A stretch of 64,000 nt of DNA from contig NZ_CP016379.1 in assembly GCF_003991135.1 (NCBI RefSeq), positions 3,038,001-3,102,000 of the forward strand, given 5' to 3'. How positions within the stretch are numbered: position 1 is the stretch's first letter; each line of letters opens with the position of its first letter. This stretch comes from Anoxybacter fermentans (GTDB taxonomy: Bacteria > Bacillota > Halanaerobiia > DY22613). The translations under genes were made by a program, and so were the position numbers. Positions 4,611 to 61,566 of the stretch are shown one piece after another. The notes below the pieces were generated by a model. The model made no database searches, was not told the DNA's origin, and was given only the letters and a program-made list of their open reading frames with translations.

Positions 4611-4752
4611 ACCAACTAATACCTTTTGTTTGAAGGAGTTTTTAATTATTTGTTTAAATAAAAAAATATCGTTTCATAAAAGTTGAAAAGATGGATATTG
4701 ATAGTTCGGTATTAACCAATAGATTTTAAACTGAGTTGGGGGTGAATAACAT

Positions 4753-6090
4753 ATGACATTACCCACAGATCAAATTTTTAAGGAATGGGTGGAGTTTGTT
4801 ACGGCTGTCAGTAAATATTCATCTATTAGGCCTATTACGTTTCAGTTTTGGGAAGGATGTCGGGAGGCAGATATAAATTCCTGTCACCAGAAATTTGTTT
4901 TTTTATCGAAAGCAGAGCTTGAACAAAAGCGGGAGGAAAATGCTGAATTAATTAAGGTTACAAGTCCTTATATAGATTATCTTTCTCTTTCGTTTTTAGG
5001 AAAACCTCATTTAGTAGTATTATCTGATAGTGAGGGTTGGATTCTTGAGGTTTGTGGTACACTCGAGGAGTTTGGGGGACAGGTAGTGGGAATCGGGCCG
5101 GGGGTTAACTGGTCTGAGGAATACTTAGGTCATAATGGTATTGGTACAGCACTTGTCAAGGGAGAACCTGTATTAATCTACGGAATTGAACATTGCGGGC
5201 TACCCTTTAATTCTATGGTATGCCTGGGGTTACCAATCAGAGATAATAATAATTCAATCATAGGTGCTCTTGATATCTGTGTTCCGAAAGAAGATGCTCA
5301 CCCGGCGTGTTTTACTCTTGCTCTTGCTAGCATTGTTTCTATCGAAAATGCTCTTTCTGCTTCTTCGAAATTACAAAATAAATTAGATTATGTTGAAAAG
5401 CTTTTGGCAACGGAAAGTCTTCTTGCAACTATGGTTCACGATTTAAAAAATCCTTTATCGACCATTCGAGGTATTAGCCAATTGGGTTATATGACTTCCG
5501 GGTCGATCAGGGAACAAGAGTATTTTAAAAAGATAATTAAACAGGTTGATATCCTTATTGATATGCTTAACGAATTATTAGGTAAATTTAAATCGGAGGA
5601 TTATATTAAGGACTCACCAGTTAAAGCTATTCAGGAAGTTTTGAATGAAATTGAACCACTATGTAGAGCCAGGGGCATTGAACTGAGTTTTTTTGCTCAA
5701 AGCTATGGAAAAACAATAATTCATGAAAGGTTCTTTAAGCGGGCCATGCATAATCTTCTAATTAATGCTGTCCAGATTATGTCAGAAGGAGGTAAACTTA
5801 TAGTTCGGGTTAACGAAAAAAAGGATTTTATTCTAATAGAGATTGCTGATACAGGGCCAGGGATACCGCTGGAGATTCAGCAAGAGGTTTTTGAACCTTT
5901 TGTTCACGGTCGTACAGACGGGACGGGTCTTGGACTTTATATAGTTCACTATGTGATTACCAAAGTTCATAGGGGTAAAATATGGTTTGAGACTGGAACG
6001 AATGAGGGTACTACATTTTACATTAAACTTCCAATTGTGAGTGTTGCTGAAAATAAACTGAATTTCACTTATCAAAGATCAGAAGTTTGA
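4753..6090 (+). CDS. GAF-domain sensor histidine kinase
   Basis: The 445-residue protein lacks membrane segments. Residues about 75-200 form a GAF-like sensor resembling that of AcoR-type regulators, with NGIGTAL and later GALDI. A HisKA helix follows with the phosphate-accepting H229 in TMVHDLKNPLS. The C-terminal ATPase domain has the N-box NLLINAVQ, the G1 box DTGPGIP and the G2 box GTGLGLYIV. It should autophosphorylate on H229 in response to a cytoplasmic signal, but no response regulator gene lies next to it, so its partner is elsewhere. GGGGGTG at 4738-4744 is the ribosome binding site. The gene stands alone between two terminators. The signal cannot be told from the sequence. Confidence 0.9.
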   Translation: MTLPTDQIFKEWVEFVTAVSKYSSIRPITFQFWEGCREADINSCHQKFVFLSKAELEQKREENAELIKVTSPYIDYLSLSFLGKPHLVVLSDSEGWILEVCGTLEEFGGQVVGIGPGVNWSEEYLGHNGIGTALVKGEPVLIYGIEHCGLPFNSMVCLGLPIRDNNNSIIGALDICVPKEDAHPACFTLALASIVSIENALSASSKLQNKLDYVEKLLATESLLATMVHDLKNPLSTIRGISQLGYMTSGSIREQEYFKKIIKQVDILIDMLNELLGKFKSEDYIKDSPVKAIQEVLNEIEPLCRARGIELSFFAQSYGKTIIHERFFKRAMHNLLINAVQIMSEGGKLIVRVNEKKDFILIEIADTGPGIPLEIQQEVFEPFVHGRTDGTGLGLYIVHYVITKVHRGKIWFETGTNEGTTFYIKLPIVSVAENKLNFTYQRSEV

Positions 6091-6105
6091 TTTTTGGTGA
6101 TTTGT

Positions 6106-6128
6106 CCACCGTAAAAGGTGGTTTTTTT
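6106..6128 (+). terminator. Rho-independent terminator after histidine kinase
   Basis: CCACC and GGTGG pair around a 6-nt A-rich loop and are followed by seven T. Confidence 0.75.
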
Positions 6129-6224
6129 ATTTCCTGAAAATATAATTCACAGGTTAATGAAGGAAGAAATATATTAATATTAAAAACAAACAATAGTTTT
6201 TTGTCCTGAAACTGAGGTGAAAAT

Positions 6225-6788
6225 ATGAATAGAATTATCTGTATTGATCCGGGACATGGTAAACCCTGGCCAGGGGCTGTTTTTGGGTTTATAAAAGAAA
6301 GCGAATTTGTTTTAAATATTGCTGCCCATCTGGCAGGAGAACTCCAGAAAAGAGGATATTTTGTAGTAAAAACCCGTTATTCTAACTTTGCTCTGGTTTC
6401 TGAAAGGGAAAAATTAGTTGAAGATCTGAATACGAGAGCCCAGATAGCAAATATGTTTAAAGCTAACATTTTCATATCTCTCCATTTCAATGCCCATGAA
6501 AACCATGCGGCAAACGGCGTAGAGAGTTGGTATTTTCAGGGGTCTGTTAAAGGCAGACATTTAGCAGAGTGTATTCAAAATCAACTTATTAAAAAATTTA
6601 AAATGCGTAATCGTGGGATTAAAGGGACAAACAAACTAATTGTTTTGAGAAAAACCCTAATGCCCGCTGTATTGATTGAATTGGGGTTTATCTCTAATCC
6701 CAAAGATAGGGAAATTATGGCTTCTTCTGATTATCCACAAAATGCAGCCTGTGCAATTGCTGATGGAGTAGATAGTTATTTTCAGTAA
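6225..6788 (+). CDS. N-acetylmuramoyl-L-alanine amidase (Amidase_3)
   Basis: The 187-residue protein is a bare zinc amidase domain. DPGHG near residue 8 carries the first zinc histidine, a glutamate in KESEF is the second ligand, SLHFNAH carries the next histidine, and the catalytic glutamate lies in VLIELGFISNP. Such enzymes cut the bond between N-acetylmuramic acid and L-alanine in peptidoglycan. There is no signal peptide and no cell-wall binding domain, so it may act in sporulation or be exported another way. GAGGTG eight bases upstream supports the ATG. It stands alone, with repeat DNA downstream. Confidence 0.9.
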   Translation: MNRIICIDPGHGKPWPGAVFGFIKESEFVLNIAAHLAGELQKRGYFVVKTRYSNFALVSEREKLVEDLNTRAQIANMFKANIFISLHFNAHENHAANGVESWYFQGSVKGRHLAECIQNQLIKKFKMRNRGIKGTNKLIVLRKTLMPAVLIELGFISNPKDREIMASSDYPQNAACAIADGVDSYFQ

Positions 6789-6854
6789 AAATATCTTCAT
6801 ATAAACGATAAGATTTATTTGTTACTATGGACGTGCTTTATTTTTCTTTTAATA

Positions 6855-6905
6855 AACGAAAAATTTCTCCTTAAACAAAAAATTAACTTTTTGTAGTATA
6901 ACCAT
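6855..6905 (+). repeat. Right-end remnant of the palindromic element
   Basis: ACGAAAAATTTCTCC followed by AAATTAACTTTTTGTAGTATAACC matches the right terminus of the 220-bp element. It abuts the full copy that starts at 6912, so an older copy probably sat here first. Confidence 0.6.
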
Positions 6906-6911
6906 ATTATG

Positions 6912-7131
6912 GTTAAACTGCAAAAAGCTAATTTTTCGCTTCTTGAGAAATTTTTCGAATCATCTAAAGCTCGATTTCCGCCGAAATAAGGCTTCCTAAT
7001 CAAAGGGCCCTCCTGGCCCTTGATTAGCTCATCACCTCCTCATATGAGGCCTTATTTCGTCGGAAATCTCGCTAAGATGATTTGGCGAAAAATTTCTATG
7101 TCGCTCAAAATTAGCTTTTTGCAGTATAATT
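6912..7131 (+). repeat. Palindromic 220-bp element, full copy
   Basis: This is a reference copy of the family. The ends are GTTAAACTGCAAAAAGCTAA and the inverted TTAGCTTTTTGCAGTATAAT. Left and right arms of about 85 bp are imperfect inverted repeats that meet at AAATAAGGC and GCCTTATTT. Between them are two small hairpins: CTAATCAAAGGGCC with GGCCCTTGATTAG, and CTCATCACC with a weakly matching CATATGAG. The flanks ATATTATG and ATATTATA look like a slightly eroded 8-bp target duplication. It has no coding capacity. Confidence 0.9.
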
Positions 7132-7205
7132 ATATTATAAGATTATCAGGAGTTTTTTTGAAAACGGATCAGTATATAAACAGAAAAAATTGGATAAAAT
7201 TTTTT

Positions 7206-8600
7206 GGGTCTATAATTAATGTTGTGAAGAAAAAATTATAAAAAATAAAAAGGCATTTGCTGGCTCCGTTGAATTAATTAGTTGCGAACTAAAAACCAAA
7301 GAAAGGAGTCCAGCAAATGCAATATAATAATATCATAAAATTTCTTGATTTGCCAGACATTATTGCAACTGAAATTATTTCAACAGAGGACAGATATATT
7401 TTTATCGCTGAAGCAAAGAAAAATCACATTGTGTGTCCTCAGTGTGGTAATATCACTAATAAAATCCATGATACAAAATGGCAAAATATTAGAGACATCC
7501 CCATAAGAGGTAAACTAGTAATCATTAGACTTCTAAAGAAAAGATATCGTTGTCCTTATTGTCATAAGAGGGGTATCCCTGAAAAATATGAAAGTATTGA
7601 TAAATATGCCCGTAAAACCAAACGCTTTGATAAATATCTTGCTAAAGAAACTGTCAGCAAGGATTATTCTAAAGTTGCTAGAGAAAACGGGTTAAGTTAT
7701 ACAGCTGTTAATAATGCAGTTAAAAAAGTAGTTGACCCTCTCATTAAACAACAAGTTTCAAAACTTAGTCAATTAAAAGCCATCAGTATCGATGAATTTG
7801 CAGTTTTAAAACGCCATAAATATGGAGTTAGCATTACAGATCCAATTAATCGGGAGTTAATTGACATTTTACCTACTCGCAAAAAGGATGATTTAATTGA
7901 CTACTTTAATTGTTGGGAAGATGAACAAAGACGACAGATTCAATCGATCTCTATGGATATGTGGCGGCCGTTCAAAGCAGTAGCAAATGCAGCATTTACT
8001 CATGCAAAAATTGTTATAGATAAATTTCATCTTGTAACTTTAATGAACAGAGCCCTTGATGAAGTTAGAAAACAAGTTCAACAAACAGTAAATAATCATC
8101 AGAGAAGAAAGTTTTTTCAAAGTCGTTTATTACTCCAAAAACGAGCTGAAGAATTGACAGATGAAGAACATGAAAAGCTCATCAAATTATTTGAACTCAG
8201 TCCAGCTCTAGAAAAGGCCTGGGAATTAAAAGAGGAATTCAGAGACCTATTGCAGCTAGATGATGTGAAAGAAGCCACCAGAGCTCTAAAAAGGTGGTAT
8301 AAAGAAGTAATAAAAAACAAGCTGATGCCTTTTTACCAGGTAAAAAAGATAATACAAAGATGGGAAGAAAAAATACTAAATTATTTTAAGACTAAGATAA
8401 CCAATGGCTTTGCTGAGGGTATCAATAACAAGATTAAATTGATCAAAAGGATTGGATATGGTGTTCCAAATGTTATGAATCTAAGGAGAAGAGTATTTAA
8501 TGCAATGTTAAGTTATTAAATTTAAATGTTTATTTCAAAATCAATTTACCAATCAATTCAACGGAGCCAACTTATCTTTCACAACATTTGACGGAGAGCC
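7206..8600 (+). mobile_element. ISL3-family insertion sequence, copy 1 (1395 bp)
   Basis: The element is bounded by GGGTCTATAATTAATGTTGT on the left and, inverted, GGCTCTCCGTCAAATGTTGT on the right. Both fit ISL3-family ends. It is flanked by a perfect 8-bp direct repeat AATTTTTT (7198-7205 and 8601-8608), the duplication length usual for ISL3. It holds one transposase gene and an inner subterminal repeat GGCTCCGTTGAATT near both ends. It landed about 100 bp upstream of the tRNA-Arg gene. A near-identical inverted copy is at 35859-37253. Confidence 0.92.
7317..8519 (+). CDS. tnpA: ISL3-family transposase
   Basis: The 400-residue transposase starts with a zinc-binding region (CPQCGN and CPYCHKRG pairs), followed by a helix-turn-helix around KVARENGLSYTAVNNAV. 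The DDE catalytic core shows aspartates in ISIDEFAVL and VIDKFHL and the glutamate in GFAEGINNKIKLIKR. It is full length and uninterrupted, so the element may still be active. AAAGGAG lies ten bases before the ATG. The copy at 35940-37142 differs at only two residues (Y3 to D and one N to S). Confidence 0.95.
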   Translation: MQYNNIIKFLDLPDIIATEIISTEDRYIFIAEAKKNHIVCPQCGNITNKIHDTKWQNIRDIPIRGKLVIIRLLKKRYRCPYCHKRGIPEKYESIDKYARKTKRFDKYLAKETVSKDYSKVARENGLSYTAVNNAVKKVVDPLIKQQVSKLSQLKAISIDEFAVLKRHKYGVSITDPINRELIDILPTRKKDDLIDYFNCWEDEQRRQIQSISMDMWRPFKAVANAAFTHAKIVIDKFHLVTLMNRALDEVRKQVQQTVNNHQRRKFFQSRLLLQKRAEELTDEEHEKLIKLFELSPALEKAWELKEEFRDLLQLDDVKEATRALKRWYKEVIKNKLMPFYQVKKIIQRWEEKILNYFKTKITNGFAEGINNKIKLIKRIGYGVPNVMNLRRRVFNAMLSY

Positions 8601-8628
8601 AATTTTTTTAAGAAATAGTTGATTTTAG

Positions 8629-9255
<627 letters not shown>

Positions 9256-9262
9256 ATGTTCT

Positions 9263-9355
9263 GGAGAGGTGGGTGAGTTGGTTGAAACCGCTCGACTCGA
9301 AATCGAGTAGACGCCCAAAAGCGTCTCGCGGGTTCGAATCCCGCCCTCTCCGCCA
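9263..9355 (+). tRNA. tRNA-Ser (anticodon CGA)
   Basis: The acceptor stem is GGAGAGG with CCTCTCC, the anticodon stem CTCGA with TCGAG encloses the loop CTCGAAA (anticodon CGA), and a long variable arm (AGACGC with GCGTCT) marks a class II serine tRNA. The T-arm is GCGGG-TTCGAAT-CCCGC and CCA is encoded. It starts 7 bp after tadA and marks the left edge of the accessory island. Confidence 0.95.
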
Positions 9356-9370
9356 TAATGTATGAATAGC

Positions 9371-9409
9371 AAGGACTTCTGGGATTTTAATCAGAAGTCC
9401 TTTTTAATT
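9371..9409 (+). terminator. Rho-independent terminator after tRNA-Ser
   Basis: AAGGACTTCT pairs perfectly with AGAAGTCCTT around a 12-nt loop, followed by TTT and a T-rich stretch. It closes the tRNA-Arg/tadA/tRNA-Ser unit. Confidence 0.85.
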
Positions 9410-9615
9410 TTTCGGAGAAGAAATTACAAATTGTCGCCGAATAGTCGCTATAATAGAGAAAAATGCACAAAACAACTGAAAATCAAATCAAAACTTTTTA
9501 CCAGAAAAGAGTCTGGGGGAATTACGACACCTCCTTAAGAAATATTATAGAAGTATTGATTTTATTTATCTTTGTGTGGTATACTAAAAATTATAAATTA
9601 CTCAAAAAAATAAAT

Positions 9616-9801
9616 GATTTTACTGCAAAAAGCTAATTTTTCGCTTCAAGAAAAATTTTTCGAACCATCTAAAGTTCGATTTCAGTGACTTGATTAGCTC
9701 ATCACATCCTCATATGAGGCCTTATTTCGACTGAAATCTCACTAAGATGGTTTAACGAAAAATTTCTATGTCGCTCAAAATTAGCTTTTTGTAGTATAAT
9801 C
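9616..9801 (+). repeat. Palindromic element, internally deleted copy
   Basis: The ends match the 220-bp family (GATTTTACTGCAAAAAGC and AGCTTTTTGTAGTATAATC). About 35 bp in the middle are missing: the sequence runs from TTTCAGT straight to GACTTGATTAGCTCATC, losing the left half of the first central hairpin. Confidence 0.85.
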
Positions 9802-10204
9802 ATCTTATTATTGCTAAAAAATATAAACCTTTAATCAAAGCTTCATGGCTATTGAATTTTGATTAATTTGACTTAATATAATTACTAAGCATCAGGTTGA
9901 TAAAAATCCCACGGAATTTTTTCCTGAAAAAGTGGGGTTTTTTTATTTGAATTGCAAATTAAATTAGTTTATCAATTGTCTCTTTTTGTCATTATAAAAG
10001 AGACATGTTTTACATTTTTCTAATATTGTAACTCAGATGGGTTGATGTCTTATATTTTAACATGTTGAATCAGAGTGGAATTAAAATATAATTGAAGTAC
10101 AAAATATAGATTTACTGAAAGGAATTGTTTGAAATTTTATTGAATTTTTAATATAAAAAACGACTGGGTAAAAGGTGGATACAGAAAGGGTATTCTACAA
10201 TGAA
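9802..10204. other. Intergenic stretch without a recognisable gene
   Basis: No coding sequence is visible. A weak terminator-like hairpin (AATCCCAC with GTGGGGTT, then seven T) lies at about 9904-9947. The rest is AT-rich and featureless to me. Confidence 0.4.
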
Positions 10205-10714
10205 TCAATCTATTAAGCACTGGGTATCTTTTGAGTTTTCTATTCCGGGTATTTCATAAAGTTCAAAACTTTTAACATTCGTTTTCTGATCTATATAAAA
10301 TTTACCTTCAAAAAAATTGGATGTATCAAAGATAAGATTGATAAATTTTTTATTAATTGGGAATAGATCTAATTTACTGATTTCATCAATAGGAACCCAT
10401 CTTAATATTCCTTCTTTTGTTTGGGTTATTGGATTCCCTTCAAATTTTGTAGATTGATAAATGAAAATTAGACCATTCAAATGTCGATCATCATCAATCC
10501 ATTGTACAATACCTCTTAGAAAAGGGTCAATTAATTTTAAACCAGTTTCTTCTTTAAATTCTCTTATAATACATTCTTTAGGAGTCTCTCCAAACTGTAC
10601 TTTTCCGCCAGGAGCACAATAACGTTTATCCCACTTTTCTTTAAAATTGATCATTAAAACTCTCCTATCATTTATTAGATAACAAATTGTGGATAAATAG
10701 AATGAATCTCTCAT
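10205..10714 (-). CDS. Nudix hydrolase
   Basis: The 169-residue protein has a full Nudix box: GETPKECIIREFKEETGLKL fits the G-x5-E-x7-REUXEEXGU pattern, with the metal-binding glutamates in REFKEETG. The N-terminal strand and the CAPGGKVQFGE segment are typical of MutT/NUDT1-like enzymes that hydrolyse nucleoside diphosphates linked to other groups. The substrate cannot be deduced. AAGGAGGA is placed well upstream of the ATG on the minus strand. It is a single gene at the left of the island. Confidence 0.88.
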   Translation of the reverse strand: MRDSFYLSTICYLINDRRVLMINFKEKWDKRYCAPGGKVQFGETPKECIIREFKEETGLKLIDPFLRGIVQWIDDDRHLNGLIFIYQSTKFEGNPITQTKEGILRWVPIDEISKLDLFPINKKFINLIFDTSNFFEGKFYIDQKTNVKSFELYEIPGIENSKDTQCLID

Positions 10715-10854
10715 ACAGATACTTCCTCCTTAATAAAAAACCGACTGGGGGGTGAAGTCACATTGAAATATATTTGACAAGAACTTTTATTATCCTTTGA
10801 AGATTTACAGGAATTACAGCTAAAAACAAAGTTTGAGTTGATCTTTGATTTTAT

Positions 10855-11319
10855 TTGTTAAGGAATAACCAGATATTGACCTTTCTGAAGACTTTGAATT
10901 ATCAGCTTGTTTTTCTTTATCTCTGGGAAAAGCTTTAGTTGAACCTTTTTTAGATTGGTTTTTATCAAGGTATATATTGGTTAAACTGCAAAAAGCTAAT
11001 TTTTCGCTTCTTGAGAAATTTTTAGAACCATCTGAAACTCGATTTTCGCCGAAATAAGGCTTCCTAATCAAAGGGCCCTCCTTGCCCTTGATTAGCTCAT
11101 TACCTCCTGTGATGAGGCCTTATTTCGTCGGAAATTTCGCTAAGATGATTTGGCGAAAAATTTCTATGTTGCTCAAAATTAGCTTTTTGCAGTATAATCA
11201 TATATTGTATTTTTAGAAATTTCGTGACGACGAGCAACCAGAGCAACATTACTTACTAATCTATATTCATCAAGGATTTGCTGTTTAAATTCATTAGAAT
11301 ACTTCTTACGTTTCATCAT
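10855..11319 (-). pseudogene. IS3-family transposase orfA remnant, interrupted by the 220-bp element
   Basis: On the minus strand the reading frame from the ATG pair at 11314-11319 gives KRKKYSNEFKQQILDEY, then RRHEISKNTIY: the start of an IS3/IS911-type OrfA with its HTH. The frame is cut at codon TAT by the palindromic element (10980-11199). It resumes beyond it as KKGSTKAFPRDKEKQAD, a typical OrfA continuation, after one further frameshift. No OrfB or clear IS ends remain. Confidence 0.75.
10980..11199 (+). repeat. Palindromic 220-bp element, full copy with 8-bp target duplication
   Basis: This copy runs from GTTAAACTGCAAAAAGC to GCTTTTTGCAGTATAATC and is exactly 220 bp. It is flanked by identical octamers ATATATTG at 10972-10979 and 11200-11207. 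Removing the element and one octamer restores the continuous OrfA codons of the IS3 remnant. This fixes the ends of the family and shows insertion by a transposition-like event. Confidence 0.93.
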
Positions 11320-25189: not shown

Positions 25190-25284
25190 AAATTGTTTCG
25201 CCTAACACAGCATAAAAGGTTCGTACCTTGCGGTACTTGTCCAAATTTTTGCTTTTTTATGCTGGAACCATTATGTGACATCCC
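25190..25284 (+). other. attC-like palindrome between cassette-like genes
   Basis: TTTCGCCTAACACAGCATAA has RYYYAAC-like GCCTAAC. CAGCATAAAA pairs with TTTTTTATGCTG, an inner hairpin GTACC-TTGC-GGTAC sits between, and ATTATGTGACATCCC ends it at 25270-25284. The next gene starts 38 bp later. This has the size and position of an integron attC site, though the outermost bases do not pair cleanly. An identical copy is in the duplicated block at 35592-35686. Confidence 0.4.
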
Positions 25285-25321
25285 TACTTTGGATTATATT
25301 ATAAATGAGGTGGTGGTATAT

Positions 25322-25744
25322 ATGAAGGAATTTACAGAAAATGAAATTTTAAAATTTTTAGGAAGATTAGCAAATGAGTGGGGAACTGGCCATGAAAGTG
25401 TAACAAAAATTTTAGGTAAGATAAAAACATTTTTAGATAAGAAGAAAGAGAAAATTAAATTTCTTGATAAAGTATATTTATTGGTTGAAATGTTAGAAGC
25501 TTGGTCAGAAAAGAAATATGTTATAGATGATGAAACTTTAGGTTTAATAATTGCTTGTTTAGCATATTTAATACTACCAATTGATTTAATACCTGATTTC
25601 ATAATAGCTGTTGGATTTACTGATGACGCTGCTGCATTTGCCTTAGTTTTTAACTTGTTAAGTTCTGAAATTGAACGTTTTAAAGCATGGAAAGCTAATG
25701 AACTTCAAATTGATGAAGTTGCATCAAGTTTGGAAGATAAATAA
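25322..25744 (+). CDS. DUF1232 (YkvA-like) protein
   Basis: The 140-residue protein contains the DUF1232 signature ILPIDLIPDFIIAVGFTDDA, with hydrophobic flanks that may associate with the membrane. The function of the family is unknown. GAGGTGG before the ATG at 25322 is the likely ribosome binding site. A longer frame upstream would read through the attC-like palindrome and is not credible. A truncated copy lies at 35724. Confidence 0.8.
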   Translation: MKEFTENEILKFLGRLANEWGTGHESVTKILGKIKTFLDKKKEKIKFLDKVYLLVEMLEAWSEKKYVIDDETLGLIIACLAYLILPIDLIPDFIIAVGFTDDAAAFALVFNLLSSEIERFKAWKANELQIDEVASSLEDK

Positions 25745-35858: not shown

Positions 35859-37253
35859 GGCTCTCCGTCAAATGTTGTGAAAGATAAGTTGGCTCCGTTG
35901 AATTGATTGGTAAATTGATTTTGAAATAAACATTTAAATTTAATAACTTAACATTGCATTAAATACTCTTCTCCTTAGATTCATAACATTTGGAACACCA
36001 TATCCAATCCTTTTGATCAATTTAATCTTGTTATTGATACCCTCAGCAAAGCCATTGGTTATCTTAGTCTTAAAATAATTTAGTATTTTTTCTTCCCATC
36101 TTTGTATTATCTTTTTTACCTGGTAAAAAGGCATCAGCTTGCTTTTTATTACTTCTTTATACCACCTTTTTAGAGCTCTGGTGGCTTCTTTCACATCATC
36201 TAGCTGCAATAGGTCTCTGAATTCCTCTTTTAATTCCCAGGCCTTTTCTAGAGCTGGACTGAGTTCAAATAATTTGATGAGCTTTTCATGTTCTTCATCT
36301 GTCAATTCTTCAGCTCGTTTTTGGAGTAATAAACGACTTTGAAAAAACTTTCTTCTCTGATGATTATTTACTGTTTGTTGAACTTGTTTTCTAACTTCAT
36401 CAAGGGCTCTGTTCATTAAAGTTACAAGATGAAATTTATCTATAACAATTTTTGCATGAGTAAATGCTGCATTTGCTACTGCTTTGAACGGCCGCCACAT
36501 ATCCATAGAGATCGATTGAATCTGTCGTCTTTGTTCATCTTCCCAACAATTAAAGTAGTCAATTAAATCATCCTTTTTGCGAGTAGGTAAAATGTCAATT
36601 AACTCCCGATTAATTGGATCTGTAATGCTAACTCCATATTTATGGCGTTTTAAAACTGCAAATTCATCGATACTGATGGCTTTTAATTGACTAAGTTTTG
36701 AAACTTGTTGTTTAATGAGAGGGTCAACTACTTTTTTAACTGCATTATTAACAGCTGTATAACTTAACCCGTTTTCTCTAGCAACTTTAGAATAATCCTT
36801 GCTGACAGTTTCTTTAGCAAGATATTTATCAAAGCGTTTGGTTTTACGGGCATATTTATCAATACTTTCATATTTTTCAGGGATACCCCTCTTATGACAA
36901 TAAGGACAACGATATCTTTTCTTTAGAAGTCTAATGATTACTAGTTTACCTCTTATGGGGATGTCTCTAATATTTTGCCATTTTGTATCATGGATTTTAT
37001 TAGTGATATTACCACACTGAGGACACACAATGTGATTTTTCTTTGCTTCAGCGATAAAAATATATCTGTCCTCCGTTGAAATAATTTCAGTTGCAATAAT
37101 GTCTGGCAAATCAAGAAATTTTATGATATTATTATCTTGCATTTGCTGGGCTCCTTTCTTTGGTTTTTAGTTCGCAACTAATTAATTCAACGAGGCCAGC
37201 AAATGCCTTTTTATTTTTTATAATTTTTTCTTCACAACATTAATTATAGACCC
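35859..37253 (-). mobile_element. ISL3-family insertion sequence, copy 2 (1395 bp, inverted)
   Basis: The length and ends are identical to those of the copy at 7206-8600, but the orientation is opposite. The flanking octamers GAGAAAAT (35851-35858) and AAAATTTT (37254-37261) do not match, so there is no target duplication. The left flank is the duplicated DUF1232 gene; the right flank is unrelated to that gene's continuation. DNA next to this copy has therefore been deleted or exchanged after insertion. Confidence 0.9.
35940..37142 (-). CDS. tnpA: ISL3-family transposase, copy 2
   Basis: The 400-residue transposase differs from the copy at 7317 at two positions (residue 3 and one N to S late in the protein). 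The zinc-binding cysteines and the DDE residues are intact. Confidence 0.95.
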   Translation of the reverse strand: MQDNNIIKFLDLPDIIATEIISTEDRYIFIAEAKKNHIVCPQCGNITNKIHDTKWQNIRDIPIRGKLVIIRLLKKRYRCPYCHKRGIPEKYESIDKYARKTKRFDKYLAKETVSKDYSKVARENGLSYTAVNNAVKKVVDPLIKQQVSKLSQLKAISIDEFAVLKRHKYGVSITDPINRELIDILPTRKKDDLIDYFNCWEDEQRRQIQSISMDMWRPFKAVANAAFTHAKIVIDKFHLVTLMNRALDEVRKQVQQTVNNHQRRKFFQSRLLLQKRAEELTDEEHEKLIKLFELSPALEKAWELKEEFRDLLQLDDVKEATRALKRWYKEVIKSKLMPFYQVKKIIQRWEEKILNYFKTKITNGFAEGINNKIKLIKRIGYGVPNVMNLRRRVFNAMLSY

Positions 37254-38429: not shown

Positions 38430-38722
38430 GAAATACAGAGTCCGTAATGTTTTTGCCCTAAACCAATATTGGAAAGACCACGGATATTATGACCTTTTTC
38501 TAAAATGATAATGTATCCATGTTTTTGTAGGTTAAATTCTTTGTTAATTTATCAACCCGTAAAGCTTTCATAAAGTTGTGTAGGATAGTCTTCAATGTGG
38601 TCAAGGTACGTTTTTTCAATAATGTTAAACTGACGTAAGATTTTGATATCTTCTGATTTCTTAATAATGCTTATTTCAACTACTTCCTTTGATAGTTTAT
38701 ATTTTGAATTATCAATAATATG
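38430..38722 (-). pseudogene. Unrecognised gene remnant on the minus strand
   Basis: On the minus strand IIDNSKYKLSKEVVEISIIK, then FNIIEKTYLDHIEDYPTQLY, a stop, and GYIIILEKGHNIRGLSNIGL can be read with breaks. The 220-bp element at 38723 abuts its start. The family is unknown. Confidence 0.3.
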
Positions 38723-38943
38723 GTTAAACTGCAAAAAGCTAATTTTTCGCTTCTTGAGAAATTTTTCGAATCATCTAAAGCTCGATTTCCGCCGAAATAA
38801 GGCTTCCTAATCAAAGGGCCCTCCTGGCCCTTTGATTAGCTCATCACCTCCTGTGATGAGGCCTTATTTCGTCGGAAATCTCGCTAAGATGATTTGGCGA
38901 AAAATTTCTATGTCGCTCAAAATTAGCTTTTTGCAGTTTGATC
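38723..38943 (+). repeat. Palindromic 220-bp element, full copy
   Basis: The copy is 221 bp from GTTAAACTGCAAAAAGC to TTTTGCAGTTTGATC. Both central hairpins are perfect here: TCAAAGGGCC with GGCCCTTTGA, and CTCATCAC with GTGATGAG. The flanks ATAATATG and ATAATGTA share ATAAT. Confidence 0.92.
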
Positions 38944-47565: not shown

Positions 47566-47710
47566 AGTATAAAAGTGGTATTGGGACATGTCCAAAAAAT
47601 CAATATGCTGCAGAAGACCTGGGAAAGGTTTTCTCAAAATTAAGGAATAACTGGAATCTGAAGCAGTATAATTATTTTATTGTGGAGTAATAATGGGAGG
47701 TATTAACGTC

Positions 47711-48508
47711 ATGAATGCTTATATTAAGCACTATTTAATATCAGTGCAAGATAAACTTAATTATAGAATAGATTTTTTATTTAAATTTTTCACAATTTTT
47801 CTTCATTTATATGCATCAGTTACTATCTGGTATGCAATTGCTACAGCAAATAGTAGCAGTTTAGATGAAACTATGATAGCTGATATCATAAAATATATGA
47901 TTTTAGCGTCAATTACGACTAATTTAATGATTTTTTGCACACCTGAGAGAGAAATTGCCAGAAGAATACGGACGGGCGAGATAGCCCGTGATCTTATTTA
48001 TCCGATTTCTTTGCCCATAACTCTTATTTTTAAAGGCTTAGGTTTTGCTACTGCTAATCTCATTTCCATGTATATACCTGGTTTTATACTATTGTCGATT
48101 ATATATAAACCTGCCTGGAATCTTAATTTAATCAATATTGCTGGTTTACTAATCGGTATATTGCTGGGATACTTTATATTTGTTTTAATAACTTTACAGA
48201 TTGAGATGATTAGTTTCTGGTGGATTGAAAATTGGTACATGCATTATATCAAACATGCTGTATTTAATTTTTTGAGTGGGACTTTAGTACCCCTTTGGTT
48301 TTACCCTGAATGGTTATATAAAATACTTAACTGGTTACCTTTTAAAAATATTGTTTATATACCTTTAGGGTTTTATCTTAACAGGATTTCTTTAGAACAA
48401 TTTTGTATACAAATGGCATTAAGCATATTTTGGATTATTTTATTGGCGGGAGTGACTTTTGTTATCTGGAAGGCAGGAGTGAAAAAGGTTGTGATTCAAG
48501 GAGGTTGA
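47711..48508 (+). CDS. ABC-2 exporter permease (COG4587-like), operon 2
   Basis: The 265-residue protein has about six membrane segments. It shares RIRTGEIARDLIYPISLPI and SGTLVPLWFYPEWLYKILNW with the permeases of the other two exporter operons. I use ATG 47711 because GGGAGG lies ten bases upstream; an ATG six codons earlier would place that ribosome binding site inside the gene. The stop is followed after 2 bp by the next permease gene. Confidence 0.86.
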   Translation: MNAYIKHYLISVQDKLNYRIDFLFKFFTIFLHLYASVTIWYAIATANSSSLDETMIADIIKYMILASITTNLMIFCTPEREIARRIRTGEIARDLIYPISLPITLIFKGLGFATANLISMYIPGFILLSIIYKPAWNLNLINIAGLLIGILLGYFIFVLITLQIEMISFWWIENWYMHYIKHAVFNFLSGTLVPLWFYPEWLYKILNWLPFKNIVYIPLGFYLNRISLEQFCIQMALSIFWIILLAGVTFVIWKAGVKKVVIQGG

Positions 48509-48510
48509 TT

Positions 48511-49311
48511 ATGAGACATACATTACTTTGTTGTATTAAACTTATCAAAGCTCAAATTAAGGGACAAATGACACATAATTGGAGTTTTGTTGTATATGTA
48601 TTTAGTATAATGGTGGTATATGCTTCTACCCTGGCTGGTATATGGGTTATTTTAAAAAGATTTACTATAATAAACGATTGGACCTATGGACAGATTGCTT
48701 TTATTTATATTTTATCTTTATTATCCTATGGGGTACGTTCATTGTTTTTTACACCGTTTAGATTTCTGGGGATATTAGTAAAAAGCGGGGATATGGATAA
48801 TTTTTTGATTAGACCAATAAACCCCTTTATATATATCATGAGTTGCAAATTTCAACCCTACTCTCTTTCTCATATTTTGTTAGGGGTTATTTTATTTTGG
48901 TTATTAAAAGATCAATTTGGAATAACCTGGAATTTAACAAATATTATATATTTTATTTTAGCAGTATTATCTGGGGCATTGGTTCAATCTGCAATTACGA
49001 TTGTGATAGGTTCACTTGCTTTTTTCATAACTGAAACCGAAGGTCTTGACTGGATATATAACGGGTTTAAAGAGTTTATATGGTATCCAGTAAGTTTATA
49101 TAATAATGTAGTTAAATTTATTTTGTTTTTTGTTATACCACTAGCTTTTGCCAGTTATGTACCGGCAGGGATTTTTTTGGATCATCCTGAATATTTAATT
49201 TTTCCTAAATGGGTATGGAAAATATCTCTTTTGGTTGGTGTTGTACTTATTCTAGGTGCGTATGGTTTTTGGAATATAGGTTTAAGACATTATCAGAGCA
49301 CAGGAAGTTAA
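48511..49311 (+). CDS. ABC-2 exporter permease (COG3694-like), operon 2
   Basis: The 266-residue membrane protein has KSGDMDNFLIRPINPF and IWYPVSLYNNVVKF, matching the paralogue at 15185, and the shared end LRHYQSTGS. The ATG at 48511 follows AAGGAGGT. Longer frames upstream overlap the preceding permease and are not used. Confidence 0.86.
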   Translation: MRHTLLCCIKLIKAQIKGQMTHNWSFVVYVFSIMVVYASTLAGIWVILKRFTIINDWTYGQIAFIYILSLLSYGVRSLFFTPFRFLGILVKSGDMDNFLIRPINPFIYIMSCKFQPYSLSHILLGVILFWLLKDQFGITWNLTNIIYFILAVLSGALVQSAITIVIGSLAFFITETEGLDWIYNGFKEFIWYPVSLYNNVVKFILFFVIPLAFASYVPAGIFLDHPEYLIFPKWVWKISLLVGVVLILGAYGFWNIGLRHYQSTGS

Positions 49312-49331
49312 AAGAGGGGATGGGAATAATC

Positions 49332-50315
49332 ATGAATGTTATTGAAGTAAAAGATTTAAAAAGATATTTTACAATATATAAGAGGCCACCTGGGATTACC
49401 GGTATATTTAAAAGTATGATTAAACCCAAAAGAATAATTAAGAAAGCGGTAGATGGAATAAGTTTTAATGTAACTAAAGGTGAGATTGTTGGTATCCTGG
49501 GCCCGAATGGGGCAGGAAAGTCAACAACTATAAAAATGTTGACAGGAATACTTGTACCTACAGAAGGAATAGTCAGAGTAAATGGTAGAGAGCCTTTTAA
49601 AAATAGGATTAAGAATGCTATGGAGATAGGAGTTGTTTTTGGACAGAGAACCCAATTATGGTGGAATTTACCTTTAAGAGAATCATTTGATTTAATCAGA
49701 ACTATATATAAAATTCCAACTGAGATATATAATAAAAATTACAAAATATTTAGTGAAATTCTTGAACTGGACAGGTTTATTGATACACCAGTAAGACAAT
49801 TAAGTTTAGGACAGAGGATGAGAGCTGAAATAGGTGCTTCATTATTACACAATCCTAAAATTGTTTTTTTTGATGAACCAACGATTGGGCTTGATGTAGT
49901 AGCAAAACAAAGGATCAGGGAATTTATAAAAAGAGTTAATGAGAAAAGTAACGTTACAGTTATATTAACTACCCATGATATGGGAGATATAGAAAAGCTG
50001 TGTGACAGAATCATAATTATTGATAATGGAAAAATTATTTATGATGGAAGTATTAATAAAATAAAGGAAATTTATGCAAAAGAAAGAGTTTTGGTTGTAG
50101 ATTTTGAAATTGAACCGGTTGATTTTGAGTTAACTATGGGAAGGGTTATCAAGGAAGAAGGTACGCGAAAACATATACTATTTAATCGGGATGAATGCTC
50201 TGCTCCTGAATTGGTGAATTATCTTTCTGCGAAATACAGTATAAAGGATTTTATGTTAAAAGAAACAGATATAGAGCATATAATCGGACATATCTATGAG
50301 CATAAATTTAAATAA
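49332..50315 (+). CDS. ABC transporter ATP-binding protein (COG4586-like), operon 2
   Basis: The 327-residue ATPase is the same length as the operon 1 paralogue. It has Walker A GPNGAGKST, GVVFGQRTQLWWNLP, signature LSLGQRMR, Walker B IVFFDEPTIGLD and LTTHDMGDIE. ATG 49320 is an alternative start; both lie near GAGGGG. It completes the second exporter unit. No radical SAM gene is left beside this operon. Confidence 0.92.
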   Translation: MNVIEVKDLKRYFTIYKRPPGITGIFKSMIKPKRIIKKAVDGISFNVTKGEIVGILGPNGAGKSTTIKMLTGILVPTEGIVRVNGREPFKNRIKNAMEIGVVFGQRTQLWWNLPLRESFDLIRTIYKIPTEIYNKNYKIFSEILELDRFIDTPVRQLSLGQRMRAEIGASLLHNPKIVFFDEPTIGLDVVAKQRIREFIKRVNEKSNVTVILTTHDMGDIEKLCDRIIIIDNGKIIYDGSINKIKEIYAKERVLVVDFEIEPVDFELTMGRVIKEEGTRKHILFNRDECSAPELVNYLSAKYSIKDFMLKETDIEHIIGHIYEHKFK

Positions 50316-51506: not shown

Positions 51507-51725
51507 GTTGAACCGCACAAAGCTAATTTTTCGCTTAGAGAGAAATTTTTCAAACCATTTAAAACTCGATTTTAGTTGAAATAAGGCTCCCTAATCAAAG
51601 GGTCCTCCTGGCTCTTGATTAGCTCATCAATCTTCATATGAGGCCTTATTTCTCCTCCGATCTCACTAAGATGGTTTAACGAAAACTTTCTATACCGTTC
51701 AAAATTAGCTTTGTGCAGTTTTTAT
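51507..51725 (+). repeat. Palindromic element, diverged full copy between convergent genes
   Basis: The ends are changed in a matching way: GTTGAACCGCACAAAGCTAA on the left and TTAGCTTTGTGCAGTTTTTA on the right, so CACAAAGC pairs with GCTTTGTG instead of the usual GCAAAAAGC with GCTTTTTGC. This compensating change supports selection or copying of the paired ends. Confidence 0.88.
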
Positions 51726-51814
51726 AAATTATCTATACCAAATGTTCTCCTTAACTTGCGAAAAAGTATAATTTCCTAAACATTGAAAAAGGCGAAAAAT
51801 AGTAATACTGCTTC

Positions 51815-52603
51815 TTAAACACCATAACCACTATATACTTTTAATGCTTTTTGCCAGGCCAATAATGAACTAATTGCAAAAATTATTAACCAAACAATTT
51901 CAATAAAAATATCTTTAATAAAACTATCTAGATATAACTTATTTTGAAGATAAGTAGTTGGAACAAAAACAAAAAATTTAAAGGGAAGAATATTAATAAT
52001 TTTTAATATTTTTTCTGGAAAAATATACAGTGGTATTATACTACCACTAAAAAAACTAACTACATTTGAAATTAACATCCGTAAGACCCAAACTCTTTCA
52101 AACTTAAATGATAATAAGCTAATCAAAAAATAAAATAGAGTATTAATAATTATTGACAGGTTAATGATAATCAAAAACTGTATTATTTGAAAAAGTTGAA
52201 TTTTGAATTGTAAATATTTTAAATAGATTAATAACAATAGCAAAAACGGCATCTTAATAATTACATTACAAAAAACTTTTCCGAAAATACTTTCAATAAG
52301 TGTTATTGGCTTACATAAATACTTTGTCAACTCACCCTTAACAACACAATCTTCAACCATTTCATTTATAATTCGGTCATTATAGAGAGAATAAACGAAA
52401 AGGGCAATGGAAAAATAGATCATAATATCTCTTAAAGAGGTATAACTTTCACTATTATTTAATATCCCTTTCCACACAAAATAGTATATAATTAAATACC
52501 CCGGATAAGATATTAAATCGAAAAAAGAGTTAATAAAATAATACCGATAATTTAATAAATTTACTCTTATTAGGATAAATAAATTCAAAAAATTTCGTAT
52601 CAT
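51815..52603 (-). CDS. ABC-2 exporter permease (COG4587-like), operon 3
   Basis: The 262-residue membrane protein has about six hydrophobic segments. CVVKGELTKYLCKPITLIES and SGSIIPLYIFPEKILKIINI match the loops of the permeases at 14018 and 47711. It is the last gene of a minus-strand operon that begins with a small peptide ORF and a radical SAM gene. The spacing to the preceding permease is 6 bp. Confidence 0.85.
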   Translation of the reverse strand: MIRNFLNLFILIRVNLLNYRYYFINSFFDLISYPGYLIIYYFVWKGILNNSESYTSLRDIMIYFSIALFVYSLYNDRIINEMVEDCVVKGELTKYLCKPITLIESIFGKVFCNVIIKMPFLLLLLIYLKYLQFKIQLFQIIQFLIIINLSIIINTLFYFLISLLSFKFERVWVLRMLISNVVSFFSGSIIPLYIFPEKILKIINILPFKFFVFVPTTYLQNKLYLDSFIKDIFIEIVWLIIFAISSLLAWQKALKVYSGYGV

Positions 52604-52609
52604 AATAAT

Positions 52610-53407
52610 CTAACCTCTACCACTTTCATAATTTTTTAGACCTTTTCGCCAAATATAGGCTGTTATTATGGTCCACGTAATAGCAACTAAAACTAAAGTT
52701 TTATTAATCTGAAAAAAATCTTCATTTGTTATCGAATGTGATGTAAATAATGTTGGATATGTTGCCAGAAAAACTAAAGGTAATACATATGTAAAAAATT
52801 TTATAATATTATCTGGATAGATTGTAATTGGATATCTAATAACTGGATTAATCATTGTTAAAATGTTTACTACAAAATTGGCCTGTTTAATCCAGAAAGC
52901 AGTATAATTTAAAGCCAAATAAATCCGATTCATTGTATAGACAACTAAACATATCATAATTAAAGACTCAATAAATCTCAATATGTCTATCTGATAACCC
53001 ATAAAAGAAAGGACAATAAACATTAGGGTAATTTCAAATCCCAATTGAAAAAGGGGCATAAAATTTATCCTCAATCCTACAATCATCCAATTTGGATTGA
53101 CCGGTTTAGTTAAAAAGACATCCAATTCTCCAGAATTAATACTCCGCCAGAACTGAAAAGTTCCACTCGATAATGCCCAGTTCAAATTATAATATATTTT
53201 AGTGTAAGAATATAACATTATTAACTGCTCAATTTTCCAGCCATAAAATCCATTAAATTTTTTAAAAATAATATTCCAGAATAAAATCTGCAACAGAAAT
53301 AAAAGTAAGTTTGTGCAAAAATACGATATTAAATTGAATCTATATTCTAAAGTTTTTTTGAAAGATATAATCAAAAAACGCCTGATCATTATGCAAAAAA
53401 ATCTCAT
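52610..53407 (-). CDS. ABC-2 exporter permease (COG3694-like), operon 3
   Basis: The 265-residue membrane protein has SINSGELDVFLTKPVNPNWM and RYPITIYPDNIIKF, as in the paralogues, and ends LKNYESGRG. Its ATG overlaps the stop of the ATPase gene (ATGA), which implies coupled translation. Confidence 0.86.
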   Translation of the reverse strand: MRFFCIMIRRFLIISFKKTLEYRFNLISYFCTNLLLFLLQILFWNIIFKKFNGFYGWKIEQLIMLYSYTKIYYNLNWALSSGTFQFWRSINSGELDVFLTKPVNPNWMIVGLRINFMPLFQLGFEITLMFIVLSFMGYQIDILRFIESLIMICLVVYTMNRIYLALNYTAFWIKQANFVVNILTMINPVIRYPITIYPDNIIKFFTYVLPLVFLATYPTLFTSHSITNEDFFQINKTLVLVAITWTIITAYIWRKGLKNYESGRG

Positions 53408-54330
53408 TGTTGATAAATCTCCTTTATAACATTTCTTAAAGAAATATCTGTAATTGATATATCAATTATGTCAAATGTATTTAATATAATTGGTAACATA
53501 TCATTTATCGTTTTATTATCTATTTTAATTCTAATATAGTCAAAAGACTCCTGTAGTACATTACAGTTTAGTCTTAGCTCCTTAAAAGCTTGATAATTAT
53601 TTACCCTGGTATAATATATCGAAATAATTTTATGAGTTAGATATTTTTTACGAAATTCCTCCATTGTATCATAATACTGAAGAGTTCCATCATTAAGTAA
53701 CATTATTTTTGAAGCTATACTTTCAACATCTCCTAATAGATGGGTAGCGAAAAAAACTGTTGCCTTTGTCTCTTTAACATATTCCTTAATCAAATTTCTA
53801 AAAATCGATTTAGTAATCTCATCTAAGCCTACCGTTGGTTCATCTAAAAAGATATATTTTGGTTTGTGGATCATAGTTACAGCAAACTCCGATTTAATTC
53901 TCTCACCGAAAGAAAACTTTCTAACTGGATGATGTAATAATTTTTCTAAATTTAATTTTTCTACCAAAAAGTTTAAATTTTTTTCAAATACCTTTTTATC
54001 CATTCTATATACATCTCGATATAATTTAAAAGATTCAATAAGTGGTAAATCCCATATCAAAACACTTTTTTGACTAAAAAGTACCCCTATATTTTTCAAT
54101 AGTTTTTTACGGTCTTTGTAAGGATTTAGATTATTAATTTTGATTTCTCCTGATGAAGGGGACAAAACACCGCACAAAAGTTTTATTAATGTAGATTTAC
54201 CACTTCCATTTTTACCTAAACAGGCAACAATTTCACCATCATCAACAGAAAAATTAATATCATTCAACACTGTTTTGAATTTCCTTCTTTTGATTTTATA
54301 TGTTTTTGATAAATTAGTAACTTCAATCAT
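53404..54330 (-). CDS. ABC transporter ATP-binding protein, operon 3
   Basis: The 308-residue ATPase has Walker A GKNGSGKST, the Q-loop region GVLFSQKSVLIWDLP, signature FSFGERIKSEF, Walker B YIFLDEPTVGLDE and FFATHLLGDVE. The signature departs from the usual LSLGQ of its paralogues. A C-terminal domain of about 80 residues is kept. TAGGAG lies upstream of the ATG. It should drive export of the product made by the radical SAM gene just upstream. Confidence 0.9.
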   Translation of the reverse strand: MIEVTNLSKTYKIKRRKFKTVLNDINFSVDDGEIVACLGKNGSGKSTLIKLLCGVLSPSSGEIKINNLNPYKDRKKLLKNIGVLFSQKSVLIWDLPLIESFKLYRDVYRMDKKVFEKNLNFLVEKLNLEKLLHHPVRKFSFGERIKSEFAVTMIHKPKYIFLDEPTVGLDEITKSIFRNLIKEYVKETKATVFFATHLLGDVESIASKIMLLNDGTLQYYDTMEEFRKKYLTHKIISIYYTRVNNYQAFKELRLNCNVLQESFDYIRIKIDNKTINDMLPIILNTFDIIDISITDISLRNVIKEIYQQ

Positions 54331-54437
54331 ATTGGTAACTCCTATCTATCATAATATTTACAATATGGCTCAGGATTCATTAAATTACCCGTAATCTCAT
54401 CAGTTACTGATGGACATCCACCATAACATTTCTTTTT

Positions 54438-55667
54438 TTAATACTCTTCACAGTATTTACATTTTGATCCTATTTCTAATGTTCTCATGAAAAGAAATTG
54501 TTCATTTTTATCCCAAATCTCTTTAAAATTTTTATTGAAAACAGATTCAGATGGTATTTCTCTTTTTTTAAAGACTTCACTTAAAAAAGTACATGGTAAA
54601 ACTTTTCCATCTGCTGCAATACTAGCATTAATAATACCTGCCCCACATCTTTTAGCTTGTAAAAATCCCATTAAATTATCTCCTACCGGTTGTGTAACTT
54701 TACCCTCAGGAGTTATTAAATGTCCATATAAAAATTGATTATTTCCTGTTTTATGAGCAAAATTTTTTATCTCATTAATCACCATCTCTTTCCAATCTGT
54801 ATTAAATTTATTTCCTTTTCTAAAATTTAAAGAGGTATTCTTTGCTCTTCCAACAGGTTTAATAGGTGAAAAAGAGCCCCGATGAATTCCACGGTCATAC
54901 ATAATATTTAAAAACTCTTTTATAGTCCATACATTTAAGTTATTTAAGACTAAATTAAAGCCAAAATCTATATTATGTTTTTGTAAAATTTTTATATTAG
55001 ACATTATTTTGTTATAAGTACCAGTACCTCTAATTCTGTCGTGTACTTCTGGAATTCCATCAATTGAAATACTCAATCTTAAAAAGTGATTTTTATACTG
55101 TTTTACAATATCTATAAATTCATCTGTTATAACAGTGCCATTAGTACAAATTTGTATATTAATTCCAGAATCAATAAGTAATTCAATAATTTTGTATAAA
55201 TCTGGATGTAATAGAGGTTCTCCACCAGTTAAACTAACTTCAAATACACCTACCTCTTTTAACTGTTGAACAATTTCCGCAACTCGATCAAAACTCATTT
55301 GAGAACCCTGTCCATAATCCCCAAAACAATGTTTACATTTTAAATTACAATAATCTGTAATTGAAAGAAATACTTTCACTGGAGCACTCAATGCATTTTT
55401 TGTTGGTAATATTTCAATAATTGAACCATTTAAATAATTTTGATTGATTACATCATTTTCTTTTAAAATATCTACGTATTCTAAAATATTTGTATATACT
55501 TCTTTTGAATCATTATGATAAAAATGTAACATTCCTTCTACGCCAAATTCATAAATCCTCTTGATAATTTCATATCCGAAATCATCTACACAAAAAAGAT
55601 TAAACTCACCTTTATCATGAACTAGTCCACCAAATCCTTCTTTTCGAATAATATATCTTTTATTCAA
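54438..55667 (-). CDS. Radical SAM/SPASM peptide maturase, C-terminus cut by an in-frame TAA
   Basis: The 409-residue protein starts with a PqqD-like domain of about 90 residues (KEGFGGLVHDKGEFNLFCVD), the part that usually binds a precursor peptide. The radical SAM core has C-NLK-C-KH-C in TDYCNLKCKHCFG and VSLTGGEPLLHPDLY. The SPASM part has CGAGIINASIAADGKVLPC, FKEIWDKNEQFLF and SKCKYCEEY, then TAA. The same frame goes on to 54342 as KKKCYGGCPSVTDEITG and ends PYCKYYDR, supplying three more cysteines normally needed for the auxiliary clusters. The gene is thus truncated by one nonsense codon, or read through. It lies between a tiny peptide ORF and an ABC-2 exporter. Confidence 0.88.
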   Translation of the reverse strand: MNKRYIIRKEGFGGLVHDKGEFNLFCVDDFGYEIIKRIYEFGVEGMLHFYHNDSKEVYTNILEYVDILKENDVINQNYLNGSIIEILPTKNALSAPVKVFLSITDYCNLKCKHCFGDYGQGSQMSFDRVAEIVQQLKEVGVFEVSLTGGEPLLHPDLYKIIELLIDSGINIQICTNGTVITDEFIDIVKQYKNHFLRLSISIDGIPEVHDRIRGTGTYNKIMSNIKILQKHNIDFGFNLVLNNLNVWTIKEFLNIMYDRGIHRGSFSPIKPVGRAKNTSLNFRKGNKFNTDWKEMVINEIKNFAHKTGNNQFLYGHLITPEGKVTQPVGDNLMGFLQAKRCGAGIINASIAADGKVLPCTFLSEVFKKREIPSESVFNKNFKEIWDKNEQFLFMRTLEIGSKCKYCEEY

Positions 55668-55741
55668 TTAAGTCCCCCCAAACCTATTTATAATATTTTA
55701 GTTATTTATTTTGCCAGATATAATTTAGACTTGAACTTAAA

Positions 55742-55791
55742 TTTAAAGAACAATAGACCTTCAAAAACTAGAAGGTCTATTGTTCTTTAAA
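55742..55791 (-). terminator. Perfect 21-bp hairpin between peptide ORF and radical SAM gene
   Basis: The arms at 55742-55762 and 55771-55791 are exact reverse complements around an 8-nt loop. On the minus strand the hairpin follows the peptide stop codon at once and lies 75 bp before the maturase start. Such a hairpin can act as a partial terminator or RNA 3-prime end, so that the peptide is made in excess of the enzymes. Confidence 0.8.
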
Positions 55792-55848
55792 TTACATCAC
55801 AGTTTGAGTACCGAGAGCAACCACTTTTTTAAATACTGGTTTCTTCAT
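55792..55848 (-). CDS. Candidate RiPP precursor peptide, 18 residues
   Basis: The ORF encodes MKKPVFKKVVALGTQTVM. AGGTGA lies nine bases before the ATG, and a consensus promoter lies 45 bp upstream. The lysine-rich first half could be a leader and VALGTQTVM the modified part. It directly precedes a radical SAM gene with PqqD-like domain and an exporter, the usual place of a RiPP precursor gene. The peptide family is not known to me. That this ORF is translated and modified is inference. Confidence 0.6.
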   Translation of the reverse strand: MKKPVFKKVVALGTQTVM

Positions 55849-55894
55849 TATTTCTGTCACCTACATATCCGATATTTCGCAATATTATAAATAT

Positions 55895-55923
55895 ATTTTA
55901 CATTTTTTATCTTTTTTTGTCAA
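55895..55923 (-). promoter_or_regulatory. Sigma-A promoter of the peptide/radical SAM operon
   Basis: On the minus strand TTGACA (55918-55923) and TAAAAT (55895-55900) are exactly 17 bp apart. Transcription should begin near 55888, about 40 nt before the 18-codon ORF. Confidence 0.78.
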
Positions 55924-56173: not shown

Positions 56174-56253
56174 AATTTCGACTGAAATCGAGCTTTAGAT
56201 GGTTTGAAAAATTTCTCAAGGAGCGAAAAATTGGCTTTTTGCAGTATGACCAT
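56174..56253 (-). repeat. Arm fragment of the palindromic element
   Basis: ATTTCGACTGAAATCGAGCT through GGCTTTTTGCAGTATGACC matches one full arm and terminus of the 220-bp family. The second arm and central hairpins are missing. Confidence 0.75.
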
Positions 56254-56404
56254 ATTTATAGAATCTTTGGTTAAAGAAATTAATTGAATAAATAAGTAGT
56301 GTATAATATTTTATGTAAAGGATTTTTGTGGGGATTTGAAGAATAATATTTTTATAATTAAATGGGAAATAAGCCTATTGTTATAATTTAAAGAAGGTGA
56401 TATT
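56254..56404. promoter_or_regulatory. Leader of the ABC-F gene
   Basis: AT-rich leader with TATAAT at 56306 and AAGGTGAT at about 56393 as ribosome binding site. I see no clear leader peptide or attenuator. Confidence 0.3.
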
Positions 56405-61286: not shown

Positions 61287-61348
61287 CCGATGTGCTAATA
61301 AGATTTATGATCTTGCACAAATGGGAGAAGCTTATATACCATATATAT

Positions 61349-61566
61349 GATTTTACTGCAAAAAGCTAATTTTTCGCTTCATAAAGAAATTTTTCGAACC
61401 ATCTAAAGCTTGATTTCAGTCGAAATAAGGCATACTAATCAATGGATCATCCTGACCCTTAATTAGCTCATCACATCCTTATATGAGGCCATTCTTTTCA
61501 ATCTTGCTAAGATGGTTTAACGAAAAATTTCTATGTCGCTCCAAATTAGCTTTTTGCAGTTTAATC
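61349..61566 (+). repeat. Palindromic element, full copy at the island's right edge
   Basis: The copy is 218 bp from GATTTTACTGCAAAAAGC to TTTTTGCAGTTTAATC. The central hairpins are partly eroded (ACTAATCAATGGATC with ACCCTTAATTAG). Confidence 0.9.

Follow-up and report, generated by a model that had tools for sequence, protein, structure and literature searches.

The described systems that come closest to the locus analysed here are those of SuiB (a streptide-type RaS-RiPP maturase, PDB 5v1q), of SkfB (the maturase of the sporulation killing factor, PDB 6efn) and of PQQ (PqqA/PqqD/PqqE). Cys, Tyr, Trp, Glu and Asp are often modified in such radical-SAM peptide systems, and the precursor PqqA has a KPxF-like start. 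In lasso and PQQ precursors, the leaders to which RREs bind have a [Y/W]xxPx[LVIAFY] motif (PMC13381572). The published consensus of the SPASM domain is Cx2-4Cx5Cx2-3Cx14-18C (PMC5682303), and natural Twitch domains, such as those of SkfB and BtrN, hold one auxiliary cluster with a reduced set of cysteines (PMC6231123). Precursors can be as short as pentapeptides, as in the case of the biarylitides (PMC12951456).

We analysed a stretch of 64,000 nt (hereafter the window; positions 3 038 001 to 3 102 000 of NZ_CP016379.1) from Anoxybacter fermentans, whose genome is complete (3.56 Mb). The operon of interest lies on the minus strand of the window, to which all its coordinates refer, and is ordered as follows: a promoter, an 18-codon ORF, a hairpin, a radical-SAM gene (starting at 55667), an ABC ATPase gene and two PF06182 permease genes. 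On balance, and with modest confidence, we read this locus as a RiPP-type operon of a known kind (an RRE-radical SAM-SPASM maturase with an exporter), probably acquired horizontally, whose maturase gene is now interrupted and which was most likely crippled recently.

Several parts of the operon proved to be as an earlier sequence-only reading had described them. The consensus promoter it had claimed is a sigma-70-type promoter, TTGACA-N17-TAAAAT (55895..55923), which matches the consensus at 11 of 12 positions and has the top score of the region. The three-gene ABC-2 exporter is also present: Pfam identifies an ABC transporter ATP-binding protein of 308 aa (53404..54330; PF00005) and two ABC-2 permeases of 265 aa (52610..53407; PF06182, 4.8e-31) and 262 aa (51815..52603; PF06182, 1e-18). 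Unlike the maturase gene, these genes are open reading frames with no interruption. A further ABC-2 exporter set, with at least one PF06182 permease and an ATPase, is found a few kb away and in the opposite direction (47693-50315, plus strand).

The radical-SAM gene (54438..55667) has a TTG start and encodes a protein of 409 aa, in which the radical-SAM core (PF04055, 4e-31) with its CxxxCxxC motif (CNLKCKHC) and a SPASM domain (PF13186) were found. All NCBIfam maturase models listed stay below their cut-offs; the highest-scoring one, mycofactocin MftC, gets 124.4 bits against a curated cut-off of 265, and PqqE is absent among the best 25 NCBIfam matches. The N-terminus had been called PqqD-like, a description that survives in part. 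Pfam PqqD gives no match to it, hhalign comparison with PqqD domains was negative, the N-terminus alone as a query retrieves no solved RRE, and AF2 gave low-confidence models both for the enzyme and for its N-terminus, too poor for a fold search. SuiB, however, which has an RRE at its N-terminus, aligns with the window enzyme from residue 5 (to residue 406; E = 8e-10 for the window enzyme alone) and in register with the RRE region, the R-x-E-x-F-G-G motif included. The RxExFG start is common to the window enzyme and four other maturases. A five-sequence family profile recovers SuiB along its entire length (3e-50), ahead of PqqE, SkfB and CteB. Since SuiB aligns from residue 5 and the family profile spans the whole of SuiB, the N-terminus is most likely an RRE domain, although the Pfam, hhalign and AF2 results give no proof of it.

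The radical SAM/SPASM gene of the earlier reading is thus real in its domains, but that reading overlooked the chief feature of the locus, namely that the gene is not intact: an in-frame TAA (54438-54440) cuts the SPASM domain three codons past the CX2C pair. The same frame continues for 31 codons beyond the TAA (KKKCYGGCP...C; 54340..54437, KKKCYGGCPSVTDEITGNLMNPEPYCKYYDR and then TAG), and its TAG lies right before the ribosome-binding site of the ATPase gene. The cysteines encoded after the stop are those of a standard SPASM domain end, with spacings here of x3 and x17. A profile of four sequences (the window enzyme and three relatives) aligns across the one TAA, over positions 2-433 of 445. 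Within the CX2C...CX3C block, 23 of 24 related maturases have a gap of 5 from the second cysteine to the third, and the remaining one has 6; in the window it is 7 codons, the stop counted. From this we conclude that a SPASM domain which was once complete has been split by a change that brought in a stop, or that the assembly is wrong at this point; the stop lies at an A-rich site and could conceivably be an error of sequencing or assembly. Two ways past the stop were discarded from the sequence: a programmed frameshift, as the TAA lies before the A-rich run and slippage there would give no bypass, and reinitiation, as the following ATG is out of frame.

In the CX2C..CX3C block the TAA comes before the third cysteine, and the SPASM cysteine set is incomplete in the encoded protein, which keeps C341, C359, C403 and C406. 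As encoded, the 409-residue enzyme would be truncated, its function lost or crippled or the enzyme reduced to a Twitch-like remnant; by analogy with Twitch domains, some activity through the four kept cysteines is possible. We take the truncation to be recent, and not an established Twitch design, because the remainder of the SPASM domain can still be read in the same frame after the stop. Against decay of the operon stand its other, uninterrupted genes, its near-consensus promoter and its perfect hairpin; any decay would thus be recent.

The 18-codon ORF (MKKPVFKKVVALGTQTVM; 55792..55848) runs from an ATG at 55848 to a stop at 55792-55794. The good ribosome binding site attributed to it can be read directly: a Shine-Dalgarno sequence, AGGTGA (55857..55862), lies 8 nt upstream of the ATG, and no other ORF between the promoter and the radical-SAM gene bears one. 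The encoded peptide is leader-like (MxxPxF), judging from its likeness to the motif reported for RRE-bound leaders (PMC13381572), but it does not match that motif exactly: in MKKPVF, Met replaces Tyr/Trp. The 18-mer is a near-match to RRE-bound leaders, at the level of the motif only. It stops where a core would start, with nothing after the leader-like part, and Cys, Tyr, Trp, Glu and Asp are all absent from it. Pfam and NCBIfam searches with the 18-mer gave no match, as expected for such a length, and there is no second copy of the peptide in the genome. The earlier reading had found it shorter than most known precursors; short it is, but 18 residues are no record beside the biarylitide pentapeptides (PMC12951456).

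An open frame of this kind could also arise by accident, in which case the hairpin and the downstream genes alone would matter. An ORF of at least 18 codons with a Shine-Dalgarno sequence and an ATG is found in 3.6% of dinucleotide shuffles of the operon leader region, and with no second copy or homologue of the peptide found, the frame could be fortuitous. We nevertheless hold this to be most improbable: the position of the ORF, its Shine-Dalgarno sequence, the hairpin over its stop and the P-x-F near-motif are jointly unexpected, such an ORF with P-x-[hydrophobic] near its start being seen in 0.15% of dinucleotide-shuffled leaders (by a criterion set after the sequence had been seen).

Given the 3.6% of shuffles, the 18-codon ORF is less remarkable than the hairpin. 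The latter is terminator-like, with a perfect stem of 23 bp and a loop of 8 nt (55740..55793; folding z = -10), and has no second copy elsewhere in the genome. No other perfect hairpin of the window comes near it in length (the runner-up has 14 bp), and its chance expectation is about 6e-7. A perfect hairpin had been claimed, and rightly, but with 21 bp and placed right after the stop codon; in fact it overlaps the stop: of the TAA stop region, the two A's that are transcribed first belong to the hairpin.

Attenuators, too, have a short ORF and immediately after it a terminator-like hairpin, ahead of the genes of an operon, and the stretch from the promoter to the maturase contains no further precursor-like ORF preceded by a Shine-Dalgarno sequence. 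The two elements could accordingly act as an attenuator or translation-sensing element, the true precursor being lost or located elsewhere. We regard this as very doubtful: the 5' arm of the hairpin together with the ORF region yields no competing antiterminator fold when the 3' arm is removed, the ORF has no run of codons for one amino acid, and the same order of peptide and hairpin is found beside a similar maturase at another locus of the phylum (L059).

Searches for orthologues of the radical-SAM protein covered about 460 sampled genomes in all: none was found at E <= 1e-40 in 60 relatives (class), nor did 398 genomes from the phylum yield one at 1e-35. Weaker matches, below these cut-offs, are generic radical-SAM enzymes. 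A GTDB-wide scan for exact peptide words gave no real relative, and neither did viral contigs. Matches on plasmids of Rhizobium, Macrococcoides and Bradyrhizobium have the type of enzyme in common with the window, not the operon, and in the vicinity of the permeases' relatives (G341, Sinorhizobium plasmid) a radical-SAM gene is neither annotated nor recognised. On a plasmid of Rhizobium sp. T1473 (L045, 7784-10492), two adjoining RxExFG-type radical-SAM maturases follow an unannotated 45-codon ORF, which ends in SSSIKKRIFKVSTFHH and may be a precursor.

The operon has a GC content of 25-27%, compared with about 30-37% around it, and is flanked by repeats: on one side, at 51512..51791, lies a full copy of a palindromic repeat that is dispersed in the genome (at least 40 matches there, and over 10 copies within the window), and on the other side, at 56175..56268, this repeat recurs as a partial copy in inverted orientation. 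It is probable that the operon was acquired horizontally, since its sparse distribution, its AT-richness and the flanking repeats fit acquired DNA. The repeat is ∼230-280 bp long, its copies are 72-87% alike, and dozens to possibly hundreds exist in the genome; it looks like a MITE-type or RNA-like family. Besides 51512-51791, the window has it at about a dozen places, among them 6909-7138, 38720-38939 and 61341-61562. The window also contains an ISL3-family transposase gene (35940-37142; PF01610) and further partial copies of its ends (7194-7359, 8499-8605 and 25198-25455).

Could the operon still work as it stands? The 18-mer would then be the precursor, the maturase would be of Twitch type (with one auxiliary cluster held by C341, C359, C403 and C406) or the stop would be an assembly error, and the leader-like peptide itself would be cleaved to give the product, in the way that PqqA gives PQQ. 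The near-consensus promoter, the good Shine-Dalgarno sequence, the unique perfect hairpin and the open exporter genes all speak for a working system; in addition, SkfB, the best match of solved structure, itself combines an RRE with a Twitch domain, and very short precursors are known (PMC12951456). We still think it unlikely, as the in-frame SPASM remainder behind the stop points to recent truncation and to no established Twitch design, none of the often modified residues (Cys, Tyr, Trp, Glu, Asp) occurs in the peptide, and no conserved relatives were found among 60 relatives, in 398 genomes of the phylum or in the GTDB-wide scan. Its more specific form, a functional RiPP system in which the leader-like 18-mer serves as both substrate and source of the product for an RRE-radical SAM enzyme whose SPASM domain was just shortened to a Twitch by the stop, seems quite unlikely.

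We therefore return to an interrupted operon of a known kind. An undescribed system with an 18-residue precursor, as had been proposed, is not borne out: the maturase gene is interrupted, the leader-like peptide lacks a core, and no second copy or orthologue was found. Between a new working system and a representative of a known kind that has recently been crippled or stripped down, the latter is the more likely. The RiPP-type layout itself (peptide, terminator-like hairpin, RRE-type radical-SAM maturase and ABC exporter) is supported: a comparable order of peptide, hairpin and maturase is found at L059 and a like exporter at a second RiPP-like locus of the same genome (L061). For the intact ancestor we infer the following: a short precursor gene would have been transcribed from the strong promoter, and the hairpin would have terminated most transcripts past it, leaving the precursor in excess over the enzymes. 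The N-terminal RRE-type domain of the maturase would have bound the leader of the peptide, its radical-SAM/SPASM part would have modified the core, and the ATPase with the two PF06182 permeases would have exported the product. Function would since have been lost, and most likely the pathway no longer yields its original product. The main present value of the case is one of caution: a broken key gene can hide in an operon that looks tidy from raw sequence. If intact relatives exist, the operon would represent an exporter-linked branch of RRE-radical SAM peptide systems, and a truncation from SPASM to Twitch would be of interest if the enzyme is active.

Compared with the described systems, the window locus is like that of SuiB in its probable RRE-type N-terminus, its radical SAM core and start of a SPASM domain, and in having an operon of a short precursor and a transporter. 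But the SPASM domain of SuiB is complete while that of the window enzyme is interrupted, the sequence similarity is distant and the type of transporter differs; the window peptide also lacks the core motifs that name the streptococcal RaS-RiPP families (PMC13361665). SkfB (E = 2e-17, over the radical-SAM core) shares a shortened C-terminal cluster domain and probably an RRE; however, SkfB is naturally of Twitch type, whereas the window gene still encodes the SPASM remainder behind its stop, and SkfA is a 55-mer against the 18-mer here. The PQQ system is similar in its very short precursor, with a KPxF-like start, and probably in RRE-type recognition of the leader, but the window peptide has no Glu or Tyr to cross-link and the radical-SAM protein is not recognised as PqqE.

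Two further loci resemble it in make-up. L059 (G372:C11, 414-2069) has, like the window, a peptide gene, a terminator hairpin and an RRE-type radical-SAM maturase with an R-x-E-x-F-G-G start, but its precursor candidate is an 80-aa peptide with no match in NCBIfam, which has an exact leader motif (YVSPEV) and a Cys-rich core, and its SPASM domain is intact; no exporter genes were recognised among the ORFs after the maturase, within the stretch read. A profile based on L059 found no additional members in its class. L061 (G000:C1:2298000-2311000, minus strand, 3171-11126) comprises a PF06182 exporter trio, a stretch of transposon-like remnants, a 29-aa peptide (MRKYEKPIIEYESPTVAFTTMWDKESDLT) with an exact motif (YEKPII, i.e. 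YxxPxI), a radical-SAM-SPASM-PqqD enzyme of 604 aa, a methyltransferase and a PqqD-flavoprotein. A search with this enzyme gave no additional members in the phylum (no relatives at E <= 1e-60 among 274 genomes). In both L059 and L061 the peptides have residues after the leader, a possible core, whereas the window peptide ends there, and L061, which looks intact, is a stronger new-RiPP candidate than the window locus.
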